Positions 10,151 to 15,823 of a stretch of DNA of 64,000 bases are shown here, piece by piece. The stretch covers positions 124,001 through 188,000 of the forward strand of contig JAPOZO010000056.1 of the NCBI GenBank assembly GCA_026706025.1, written 5' to 3'. Source of the stretch: Candidatus Poribacteria bacterium. GTDB lineage: Bacteria > Poribacteria > WGA-4E > WGA-3G. Position numbers and translations under genes: made by a program. Under the pieces are notes generated by a model, which was given only the letters and a program-made list of their open reading frames with translations, was not told the origin of the DNA and did not search any database. Numbering within the stretch: the stretch's first letter is position 1; each line of letters starts with the position of its first letter.

Positions 10151-10367
10151 GGTCTATACCTCGTTCAATAGATGAGGGTTGTTGCGGCATCATACTCCTT
10201 TGGATCTTGAAAAGTATAACATAGAAATACCGAAAAATCAACGCGATATAGCGAGATGCTGCGAAATGCTGCGAATTTTTCTGGGTTTTTTCAAAAAACA
10301 TAACATATATTAAGTGTTAACACTGCGAAAAATACAACATAAAAAAAATGAAGTGCCAACGGTAATT

Positions 10368-10480
10368 CAGACCACAAAATCAGCAAAGTTAAGACAAGTT
10401 TTTTGCTCAAATTCTACAGGTGTCAAATGGTTTCCTAACGCCGAGTGAGGACGTTTCTATTTATACACTTGTAGGATAAT
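10368..10480 (-). pseudogene. 3' relic of an IS3-family transposase
   Basis: Read on the minus strand this frame gives VYK, a stop, then KRPHSALGNHLTPVEFEQKT and CLNFADFVV, ending at 10368. The KRPHSALG--TP-EFE pattern is the C-terminus of IS3-family OrfB integrases. The internal stop and the loss of everything upstream show a dead fragment. The rest of 10151-10641 holds no gene that I can recognise, only a short ATGCTGCGAA tandem near 10254-10276. Confidence 0.65.
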
Positions 10481-11961: not shown

Positions 11962-12238
11962 TCAGTCCTCAGAAATCGCTTGCCTTTCTCTGCCCGACTG
12001 GCGGGGTTGAATGAAGACAAGACTTACGCAAATTTAGCATACGGTGTGAGATTCTTTTATTCAGCTCACGTTAGGACATCTCTATAAATGCTGAAGAAAT
12101 CCGCAGAAATCCGCAGAAACACCCTATCAAATACCCCTATCAAATACCCCAAGCAATACCCCAAGCAAAAACCCCCTACGGGACTGAAGCGGTTTTTGAA
12201 GTATTCAAGATTTTGTTTATTGTAAAGTTTTAACCACC
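11962..12238. repeat. Gene-free stretch with CCCC(C)TAC-type repeats
   Basis: No gene is visible. A direct-repeat tract at 12090-12175 has AATCCGCAGA twice, CTATCAAATACCCC twice, CCAAGCAATA and CCAAGCAAAAACCCCCTACGG. The last part matches the right half of the GTAGGGG...CCCCTAC elements found in the pyrimidine operon. A GACTTACGCA motif near 12023 recurs near 19759. Confidence 0.5.
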
Positions 12239-12268
12239 TTGACTTAATAAATTGAATTAAGATATAAT
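12239..12268 (+). promoter_or_regulatory. Likely sigma-70 promoter of the primase-helicase gene
   Basis: TTGACT at 12239-12244 and TATAAT at 12263-12268 are separated by 18 bp. They lie 71 bp upstream of the ATG at 12339, in an AT-rich stretch. Called by eye. Confidence 0.55.
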
Positions 12269-12338
12269 TGCCTTAGTAAGATTTTAGTAGTTTAATCCGG
12301 TTATTTCACTGAGGCGGAACTTGCGTTATAAATAAATT

Positions 12339-15300
12339 ATGAACGCCTTAAAAGATATCCTTCAGCGTTGTCATCAACGACATAAAAAGCCGCTTCGCCA
12401 GCGAAAAACAAAGGTGACACCTGCGCTGTACAAAGGGTTCCCATATCATTTCACGGTCTATTGTGCTTGGCGATGCCCTGTGAGACTCTATGAACTCGAG
12501 CAGGCAGACATCTCTTTCATGCCTATAGGACGCGCACCTCAGCACGACCACGGTCCGCTGGATTTTGGCGGTGAACGGTTCTTGAGCCGACAACGTTTAA
12601 GTGATTGGAATAACTGGGTATGGCACAAATCATGGGGAATTCAAATCTATACCGGTACGCCTTCAGAGCACGATGGCGCGCAATGGCACGACATTGATTT
12701 TAAGTATGACGCGATTTGTGCTGCCCCGGATACTGTTCTTGCTTGTATTGAGGCACTCGTTAATTCTGTTGCGAATCCACTATTGACGCTGACAAAGTCT
12801 GGTGGGCTGCGTTTTTCTTTCAGAGTACAGGGTTATCTCCATCAAAATACTGATGAAGCGAAGCAGTATATCTATAAACACACACCGACGACAGAAAATC
12901 CATACCATCGCGATGTATATCTTGAGATTCTTGGCAATGAGGAATACAGTCTCTGGGATGGGCGCTATGAGATTCTGCTCGGAAATTTATTAGATCCGCC
13001 TATCATTACTAAAGAGGTACTCTTTGCCCCTATTGACGCCCTTCGCGCTGCGCTTCACGAATCTGCGCCGCCAACAGAAGGGGAGTTAGCACTGAGTCCC
13101 CGATCGGTACCTGTTGTGCCAACGTACTTCGGTTCGCACAACCTTAATCTTGCAAAAGAGGCGTTTTTGAAGCGCGAGTTTTCTTATGTCCAGCAGGAAA
13201 ATAACGTTCACTACTGGAACCGCCCCGACAGCGACGTTGAAGATGGACGCGTTTTGTTATGGGAACAAGACGGGGTGGTGTGGATACGCGCATCGACATC
13301 TGATGAAGGACTACCGATGGAGGCGACACATATAACAGATGTCTGGGACGATACCGGTATTCTGCCATTGCTACCAGCTGCTGGACTACCTGTAACGGAT
13401 AATGTGCGTGACGTGCGGGAAGGGAAACTCAGTCCATTGGCGATAAAGCGTCCGGATCCTATGCTGCATCAGCAGGGACGTGAAAATAAGGTTTACGGGA
13501 CCCTTAAAAAGAACGCCGCTAAGATACAGCGTGTTTTCAATCGGGAGGTCCGAATTCTCGGACTTATTGCCGAGACAGGGGCAGGGAAAACCTACGCCGC
13601 GGCATCCTATGTCCTCAACGGCGGTGCGATCAGTTTCAGCGGAAAGTCCGTGGTAACAAAAAAAGCAGAACGCCGCTTTCAAAATCAAGACTTGCCATCG
13701 GTTGCCTACAGGCGAGCACGCGAATACTTGTGGGAACAAGTGAAAGAGATACCGGTTGAGGAACGGATGGCGACCCCTTTTCAACGCGGTAATATCTGTG
13801 AGGACCCGGAGCGGTGTTACGAGTTTGAAAGAAAGGGTGGGAATCCAGATGAAAGTATTTGTCCACAGTGTCCAGTTTATATAGAGTGTCAGCAGCGCGG
13901 CTATTTGTCGCAACCCGGCACACTGCAACGTGCCAAAGCACAAATATGTAACCCAATGCGACTGTTTTTGGATCCACAAAACTCAGAAACGGTGGAAAAA
14001 ATGCTTGAGAAGACAGATGACACAGAGCGGCTCTGTATCATTGATGAAGCGTCAACGGATAGGCTATTTATTTCCTGTCGTATATTAAAAAACACATTGG
14101 AAGAGTGGCGTGTAGACTGGCGAGGAAGTGCCTTAGGGAACTTTGGGAATGCCCTATTAAACGCATTGGAAGTCAAAAGTGGATTTGATGGTAATGCTGT
14201 CGGTCGGATCCGCGCAGTGGTACAGGCATTTGAAGGGCAGAAAGAGACACTCATTCAACAGATGTGTCAAGTCAATGCAACGGGTAAAGTGGTGCCGCGT
14301 GAGTTTGTTGATGACGAAACGGGCGAAACTTTGGCGCGTTTTAGCATTGTGTTTGAAAACGAAGCTGCTGCTCACATTCCCTTAGATACAGACGCTGCAG
14401 ATAAACTTGCGACAAAAGGGCTGCCTGTCTTTGAACTTGATACCTTCGCATTGAACGAGGATATGAAAATACCGATGTCAATGACACAAGCCGTTGCGTT
14501 GGGCGTTTTGGACACAGCAACCGTAACAAAAATCAAGACATTTCCGACAGTTTATAGGCATCCAAATTGGACGTTTTGGCATCAACTGAAGCGTTTCTTT
14601 GAACATTATCCACGGGATGCTGATGCCCCGTTGTTATGGTCTGACGAAGATATGCGGTTCTGGGTGCCACCGGTGTTGCCTCCGACGGTCAAGCGTCTTC
14701 TGTTCATGTCGTCAACGCTCTCCGAGCCGGATCTCTATCGGGCATTTCCGGGTGAAGAGATTGAAGTCCACCACATCAAATCGACAGCGTGGGTCGCCGG
14801 GAATCGAGTTTTTCAGATTCGCACAGGTATCTATCCACGACAAACAATTTTAAACTACGATACCGATTGGAGCGTTATGGGTATGTCTGAGACCGGACAG
14901 CGTTTTTTTCTTGGTATCCAAGCAGAAATTGAGAGTGACCCAAGCGTTAAGCATGCGATTATCACCAGCGGACCAGTAACACAGCATTTACAAAACATCG
15001 CAGCAAGGGAAAATGTCTGTTTTGTAACAGGTTTCAAAGAGATAGAGACATTAGAAGATACCGCTTTTGAAACGGCAGAAGTGGTTTGGATAGTTGGGGT
15101 CCCGTTCTGGTCACCAGGTCTCACTTGGCGGCAATCACAGATTTTGTTTGGCAACGACGAAAAACCGCTCTGTTATGATGGAGAAGCGGAATTTGGGAAC
15201 TACAAAGACGAGCGCATCCAAGATGTTTATGAACGGAGTGCTGCCGGTTTATTTACACAGATTGTCGGTCGAGTCGGATTGAACCGTTTACCGAACAAGA

Positions 15301-15755
15301 CGGTGGTGCTGCTTTCGAGCATGCCATTGCCCGACATCACCAATAGACCCGAAACCCTCCTTTTTGACTGGGAGGACTTTGAGGTTGCTGGCGGGCTGGG
15401 CAAACTCCCTGAGGTAATAGCCGAACGCGAGCACTTTGAAACAGAACGCGACAACCTCACTGCGGAATCTGGTCGCGAAGAAGTGGAACAGGTCATGGGA
15501 GTCTCCAGCAGTCAGGCGAACCGTATTTTGATGAAGCTCAGAGGCGGTAAACGCCTTCGTGCCCCGTTCCGGGACCAGATTTTCTCGCTGCTTTCCGGCG
15601 GTGAGAAAAAAACAGCAGAACTCATTGATGCGATTGACGGACATCCGGGTTCCATCAAAAATGAACTTAAGCGTCTTGTAGATTCTGGTGAAATCGTGAA
15701 GGTTCGGCGGAGTATGTATGCGCTGCCGCCTTCGTCTGACTCGAAAAAAAAGTAA
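12339..15755 (+). CDS. Putative primase-polymerase/XPD-DinG-like helicase fusion
   Basis: 1138 residues. About residues 80-225 resemble an archaeo-eukaryotic primase/PrimPol core: IQIYTG, then HDIDF (117-121, candidate catalytic Asp pair), LTKSGGLRFSF (151-161), and VYLEILGN...RYEILLGN. Next comes a P-loop AETGAGKT (411-418), a Walker B IIDEAS (567-572) and, between them, Cys 487, 493, 508, 511, 517 and 537. This placement recalls the FeS cluster of XPD/DinG helicases. LFMSSTL and QIVGRVGLNR would be later helicase motifs. The last ~90 residues look like winged helices. I know no named family with this full plan. It stands alone behind its own promoter. Confidence 0.6.
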   Translation: MNALKDILQRCHQRHKKPLRQRKTKVTPALYKGFPYHFTVYCAWRCPVRLYELEQADISFMPIGRAPQHDHGPLDFGGERFLSRQRLSDWNNWVWHKSWGIQIYTGTPSEHDGAQWHDIDFKYDAICAAPDTVLACIEALVNSVANPLLTLTKSGGLRFSFRVQGYLHQNTDEAKQYIYKHTPTTENPYHRDVYLEILGNEEYSLWDGRYEILLGNLLDPPIITKEVLFAPIDALRAALHESAPPTEGELALSPRSVPVVPTYFGSHNLNLAKEAFLKREFSYVQQENNVHYWNRPDSDVEDGRVLLWEQDGVVWIRASTSDEGLPMEATHITDVWDDTGILPLLPAAGLPVTDNVRDVREGKLSPLAIKRPDPMLHQQGRENKVYGTLKKNAAKIQRVFNREVRILGLIAETGAGKTYAAASYVLNGGAISFSGKSVVTKKAERRFQNQDLPSVAYRRAREYLWEQVKEIPVEERMATPFQRGNICEDPERCYEFERKGGNPDESICPQCPVYIECQQRGYLSQPGTLQRAKAQICNPMRLFLDPQNSETVEKMLEKTDDTERLCIIDEASTDRLFISCRILKNTLEEWRVDWRGSALGNFGNALLNALEVKSGFDGNAVGRIRAVVQAFEGQKETLIQQMCQVNATGKVVPREFVDDETGETLARFSIVFENEAAAHIPLDTDAADKLATKGLPVFELDTFALNEDMKIPMSMTQAVALGVLDTATVTKIKTFPTVYRHPNWTFWHQLKRFFEHYPRDADAPLLWSDEDMRFWVPPVLPPTVKRLLFMSSTLSEPDLYRAFPGEEIEVHHIKSTAWVAGNRVFQIRTGIYPRQTILNYDTDWSVMGMSETGQRFFLGIQAEIESDPSVKHAIITSGPVTQHLQNIAARENVCFVTGFKEIETLEDTAFETAEVVWIVGVPFWSPGLTWRQSQILFGNDEKPLCYDGEAEFGNYKDERIQDVYERSAAGLFTQIVGRVGLNRLPNKTVVLLSSMPLPDITNRPETLLFDWEDFEVAGGLGKLPEVIAEREHFETERDNLTAESGREEVEQVMGVSSSQANRILMKLRGGKRLRAPFRDQIFSLLSGGEKKTAELIDAIDGHPGSIKNELKRLVDSGEIVKVRRSMYALPPSSDSKKK

Positions 15756-15823
15756 TCCCATCGTAAAATCACTTCGGACCCATCTTCCGCATTATTATCA
15801 GATTGATAACTCTCCGAAAAAAC

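Follow-up and report, generated by a model that had tools for sequence, protein, structure and literature searches.

The gene described here belongs to a previously unnamed family of large proteins, and all members found are held by two genera of one Poribacteria family. It lies in the window, as we call the whole stretch of 64,000 nucleotides that was analyzed, and its product joins in one chain an AEP/PrimPol-like domain, a DinG/XPD-type helicase and C-terminal winged helices. The family is multicopy, has lost catalytic motifs in most members yet stays under purifying selection, and is vertically inherited at the window locus. The explanation that we favor, as possible rather than probable, is that the family descends from a mobile-element primase-helicase and has been domesticated as DNA-binding FeS-helicase-scaffold proteins.

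Domain Architecture

The gene is a single open frame of 1138 codons from ATG to TAA (Table 1). Sequence models leave its domain plan unexplained: the sole Pfam match is a sub-threshold AbiEi winged helix, NCBIfam and PHROGs hold nothing useful, and a sequence search of the PDB gives no match. Structure prediction combined with Foldseek explains the plan, pointing strongly to DinG/XPD and weakly to NrS-1 PrimPol. A preliminary description made from the sequence had singled out the strings HDIDF and SGGLRFSF, which are indeed at residues 117-121 and 154-161, and had proposed a primase-like core, an FeS-type helicase and winged helices in one chain; the AF2 model, Foldseek and a weak, in-order hhalign match bear this out. 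The plan is beyond chance: 77 distinct homologues share D118 and R158, and the four Cys are found wherever their segment is present.

The helicase is the clearest part. The AF2 model of the full protein has a mean pLDDT of 81.7, with low values at residues 510-513 and 519-524. Its top PDB match in Foldseek is DinG (9kqh, E = 4.6e-10), and the best 21 matches are all DinG, XPD (also within TFIIH) or CasDinG, down to an E of 2.9e-5 (XPD 9p55 and CasDinG 7xf0 among the matches). The PADLOC model typeIV_DinG aligns over residues 393-805 (1.8e-7). Cys 487, 493, 508, 511 and 517 fall between Walker A and Walker B. The window copy has what defines the DinG/XPD group, namely the fold, Walker A/B with motif VI, and four Cys between motifs I and II. 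A bound 4Fe-4S cluster and 5'-3' helicase activity are predictions for this copy, which is probably still functional as a helicase.

The N-terminus is, with moderate confidence, a divergent AEP domain. When residues 1-345 are modeled separately (pLDDT 81.2), the three best PDB matches are all NrS-1 PrimPol, and those that follow include CRISPR-associated Prim-Pol (CAPP) and LigD polymerase domains. The statistics of this assignment are weak: the best match (6jop) has an E of 7e-3 and a probability of 0.96, no PDB match to this model is below 0.001 in Foldseek, and hhalign against 11 Prim-Pol proteins of other Poribacteria genomes gives a P of 0.029. The hallmarks nevertheless follow in the same order, with SFMPIG aligned to AVFPI, GIQIYTG to GIATG, WHDID to VVDVD, the TKSGG segment to TPRGG, and YLEI to VDTR. 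E196 comes into register with the V[DE]xR/K of the Prim-Pol proteins and would be the motif III acid. Many primases/polymerases of the viral structure library, phage proteins included, match the whole 1138-residue model in Foldseek. The primase fold that had been suspected at the N-terminus is thus weakly placed by AF2 and Foldseek, rather than found absent.

Table 1. Features of the gene and its surroundings, in window coordinates.
Feature	Position	Strand	Basis or remark
DNA present here, absent at the MATE-isomerase site of seven relatives	11962..15811 (approximate)		Locus comparison
Sigma-70-like promoter, TTGACT-18-TATAAT	12239..12268	+	11/12 matches; 70 bp 5' of start
Whole gene, AEP-like + DinG/XPD-type helicase + wHTH	12339..15755	+	ORF, AF2 model, Foldseek
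AEP/PrimPol-like domain (residues 1-245)	12339..13073	+	Partial model, Foldseek, hhalign
Motif I, WHDID (116-120)	12684..12698	+	D118 invariant; D120 in 32/77 copies
Motif II, TKSGGLRF (152-159)	12792..12815	+	Usual His is Arg158 in 77/77
E196, probable motif III acid	12924..12926	+	E in 68/77
Walker A, GAGKT (414-418)	13578..13592	+	Intact in window copy
Cys region 487-517, C-x20-C-x2-C-x5-C plus C493, FeS-type	13797..13889	+	Sequence alignment
Walker B, DEAS (569-572)	14043..14054	+	Intact in window copy
Motif VI, QIVGR (974-978)	15258..15272	+	Intact in window copy
FDWEDF (1009-1014)	15363..15380	+	Within the family's most conserved block
HTH + AbiEi-like winged helix (about 1041-1130)	15459..15728	+	AbiEi_4-like Pfam match, AF2 model

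Loss of Catalytic Residues under Purifying Selection

Residues were counted over the 77 distinct family copies. In motif I, the first Asp (D118) is present in all of them; the second completes the DhD motif as DID in the window copy, and the position is otherwise free (D in 32, E in 21, N in 12 and other residues in 12). The His of an SxH-type motif II is absent, since position 158 is Arg in every copy, as against His in Prim-Pol proteins. E211 is kept in 76 copies. The Cys segment is found in 62 copies; every one of these has Cys 487, 508, 511 and 517, and 57 have Cys 493. Only eight copies, of which the window copy is one, keep Walker A (GxGK[ST]), Walker B (DE) and motif VI (GR) together, and 43 have none of the three, counts that take in copies with the segment deleted. 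The fixation of R158, the variability of position 120 and the loss of motor motifs in most copies argue that the polymerase site is probably dead across the family and the motor in most of its members, and the earlier idea of a working primase is not supported by motifs I and II. Conservation of R158, R162 and E211 would also be compatible with a possible re-modeling of the active site instead of degeneration. The window copy, being among the few with the full helicase motif set, is expected to be an ssDNA translocase/helicase.

Degenerate copies still have open frames and are under purifying selection. Whole-gene dN/dS (Nei-Gojobori) is 0.16-0.29 in 13 close pairs, motor-dead pairs included; constraint is usually weakest in motor domain 1a (0.26-0.71). 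Family-wide conservation is likewise lowest in motor domain 1a (0.60), and is highest in the FDWEDF block (0.84), followed by the FeS (0.76), AEP-like (0.75) and HTH/wHTH (0.75) domains. Purifying selection in degenerate copies means that the genes are retained, though not for both enzyme activities.

Distribution and Forms of the Family

Homologues are present in 48 of 98 related genomes, all in the two genera. Across the phylum, matches come from 51 of 85 genomes, and the two from outside that Poribacteria family are short, one being to a winged-helix-like stretch and the other to the helicase portion of another kind of fusion protein (L172, described below). A scan of the genomes of 84,980 species, which reaches close relatives only, matches Candidatus Poribacteria alone. 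Assembly names suggest that the samples are sponge-derived.

The five genomes examined in full have many copies each. Lists of matching pieces, for example 26 in G021 and 19 in G028, are not gene counts, as a single gene can yield several pieces; from such lists we estimate 0 to roughly 18 copies per genome. The copies lie among ordinary genes of the chromosome, either scattered or in tandem arrays, and fall into length classes of about 1138, 1007, 980, 920-940 and 770 residues. Four of the five genomes have a 1007-residue form at the same conserved locus (L155-L158), and the fifth has a divergent 995-residue relative elsewhere (L159). Two tandem arrays (L039:5426-18660 and L041:2778-17119) have four divergent members each, two of which are full-length while the other two, of about 772 residues, lack motor domain 1. 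In a motor-dead clade (L068, L127, L025, L070), the copies are preceded by a conserved non-coding stretch of about 190 bp, at a variable distance from the start; it could be a common regulatory region.

Locus History and Upstream DNA

The window gene lies between two genes of the same strand, for a MATE transporter (5') and a xylose-isomerase-like TIM-barrel protein (3'). The isomerase has one close orthologue in 19 of the 20 genomes searched, and a family gene is 5' of it in four (G000, G015, G009, G018). In G006 a family gene directly follows the MATE gene, the contig ending downstream. In seven relatives (G014, G027, G029, G032, G007, G028, G021) the MATE gene leads directly into the promoter region of the isomerase. 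Synonymous divergence of the family gene tracks that of two host genes, the isomerase and ribD: dS is, for example, 0.12 vs. 0.17 and 0.13 for G000-G015, 0.40 vs. 0.49 and 0.40 for G000-G006, and 0.48 vs. 0.35 and 0.47 for G009-G018. Since the gene tracks its hosts, it has kept this locus from the time that the species parted, with loss elsewhere or an ancestral gain.

No terminal inverted repeats, target duplications or shared ends of family copies are seen. The most similar copies found within one genome are 69-78% identical, in a comparison of part of the copies of each of the five genomes. A single-gene transposon was rejected on these grounds, there being neither terminal repeats nor young copies, and dS following that of host genes. 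Members of a sister clade, S1 (G014, G029, G004, G027, G032, G016, G011), are elsewhere, close to hemW and/or ribD, and no copy could be seen at the window locus of the S1 genomes. The S1 and window-locus copies may be paralogues with alternate loss, or a single gene that moved. Directly 3' of the S1 copy in three genomes (L033, L034, L035) is an ORF of about 1000 residues that, by eye, resembles a type ISP restriction-modification enzyme.

The gene appears to have its own promoter, as the preliminary description held: the promoter-like element of Table 1 has a counterpart (TTGACA/TACGAT) in the matching position of the G006 orthologue. Upstream of the gene are also 12-13 bp tandem repeats, CCCTATCAAATAC and AATACCCCAAGC (window 12117-12166). 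These are not found upstream of the orthologues in G006, G009 and G018, and iterons were for that reason rejected as an explanation.

Genomic Context

Relics of hsdR and of an IS3 element had been thought to adjoin the gene. A fragment similar to the C-terminal end of IS3-family transposases ('KRPHSALGNHLTPVEFE', 10367-10456, minus strand) was recognized by eye, with no Pfam match, but is 1.9 kb away on the far side of the MATE gene; no hsdR relic was found near the gene. The neighbors of family copies are ordinary chromosomal genes, which does not agree with a setting of defense or mobile-element relics, and at clearly unrelated loci there is no recurrent partner gene suggesting a system, other family copies excepted; neither partners nor surroundings hint at a function. 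A PADLOC comparison of 99 near with 100 far neighbors, the near set including four TnpB proteins scored as Cas12f, gives no clear defense excess among the 25 most frequent families listed for each set, and membership of a defense island was rejected. Curated defense models give only partial matches of the DinG and AbiEi types, which do not amount to a known defense system. No relatives were found in phages, plasmids or IMG/VR, and a phage or plasmid gene was rejected as well.

Origin and Possible Function

The tentative model is as follows. The ancestor would have been a primase-helicase of the mobile-element replication kind, with AEP, helicase and winged helix. Primer making would have been lost family-wide at the AEP active site and the motor would also be dead in most members. 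Selection would retain four parts: the AEP-like domain, as a binder of DNA or nucleotides, the FeS domain, the FDWEDF block and the HTH domains that bind DNA. The window copy would be an ssDNA translocase/helicase that depends on ATP and FeS; its winged helices would direct it to DNA, and its AEP-like domain would be a non-catalytic clamp. We infer a role in handling or policing DNA, which might serve to maintain the genome or to interfere with foreign DNA as it replicates. Domestication into scaffold proteins is favored because loss of the motif II His is fixed, motors have been lost repeatedly and selection continues. Phage, plasmid and viral collections yield no mobile-element parent in which the motifs are intact, so that a mobile origin is argued from the architecture only.

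The same observations admit a more specific reading, to which we give an appreciable but minor probability: degenerate copies would act as defective replication proteins that block related plasmids or viruses by binding their origins, forks or partner proteins, a bacterial analogue of endogenous-viral-gene immunity. The architecture fits mobile-element replication proteins (PMC5862659), DNA-binding parts are kept under purifying selection after catalysis was lost, each genome has many divergent copies, and genes come and go at sites; an invader with an intact relative is, however, missing from the phage, plasmid and viral collections, and defense genes nearby show no clear excess over control genes. 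That a bacterial phylum has in this way domesticated a mobile-element primase-helicase, so that each genome now has many pseudoenzyme copies blocking the replication of related plasmids or viruses, is, taken as a whole, unlikely. It is rather improbable that the proteins are mainly site- or structure-specific regulators, of transcription or the nucleoid, that bind through their C-terminal winged helices, the remainder of the chain being a scaffold. Conservation of the HTH and AbiEi-like winged helix, repeated motor loss and the copies without motor domain 1 would fit such regulators; the full motor of the window copy would not, and scaffolds so large, with conserved FeS Cys, are unusual among regulators.

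Readings in which the enzymes work fare less well. A functional primase-helicase that serves replication or repair, its active site unusual in having Arg where motif II should have His, would fit the window copy, in which D118, D120, E196 and every helicase motif are kept. We consider it quite improbable: R158 is fixed and position 120 free even in copies with intact motors, and no obvious replication genes adjoin the window gene. A selfish single-gene element copying itself with its own primase and helicase is very improbable; dispersed copies, present or absent at neat sites, are what it would leave, but inverted repeats and target duplications are not seen, the closest within-genome copies found in the five genomes differ as given above, dS follows the host genes, and most copies miss the catalytic motifs.

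It is unusual in bacteria for a lineage-specific radiation of such proteins to lose enzyme activities while its genes are maintained by purifying selection. The family members form a natural series, with full motor, dead motor and no motor domain 1, in which the action of an FeS-helicase scaffold without its motor could be tested. They are candidates for a new DNA-handling or interference factor in bacteria mainly known from sponges.

Comparison with Known Systems

The helicase part resembles the SF2 FeS helicases DinG and XPD, including CasDinG of type IV-A, in predicted fold, in the order of Walker A and B and in the four-Cys segment between them. Unlike these, the family adds an AEP-like N-terminus and a C-terminal HTH/wHTH, its helicase is undetectable by Pfam, and most members lack the motor motifs. 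To Prim-Pol (PF09250) AEPs such as the phage NrS-1 PrimPol the N-terminus is linked by the hallmark order G-x-x-x-x-TG, hDhD, T-x-SGG and acidic motif III, and by a weak match of the predicted fold; it departs from them in the His-to-Arg change in all copies, in the variable second Asp of motif I and in its fusion to a DinG/XPD-type helicase.

Genome G071, of another Poribacteria family, encodes a 1275-residue protein (L172:264-4088, minus strand) in which DUF3854 (TOPRIM-like) is fused to a DinG-like helicase. It shares with our family the combination of a primase-like module and such a helicase, and the family profile picks up its helicase part, but its primase class is unrelated and the type was seen in one example.

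The overall plan is that of the mobile-element proteins of the PrimPol-PV1 supergroup, in which a single chain carries a primase, a P-loop helicase and a C-terminal winged helix (PMC5862659), from which the window family differs in being chromosomal, standing alone and multicopy. The AEP partners named in that survey are RepA, DnaB, MCM, VirE, DUF927, DUF3987, D5 and UL9-like SF2, and DinG is not mentioned as a partner in its main text (PMC5862659). In the full-text literature outside subscription journals, on DinG-like helicases with primases and on helicases and primases in Poribacteria, no title or abstract found describes the family. AEP-helicase fusion as such is already known from mobile elements; what is new here is the DinG/XPD-type partner and a chromosomal multicopy radiation with pseudoenzymes.
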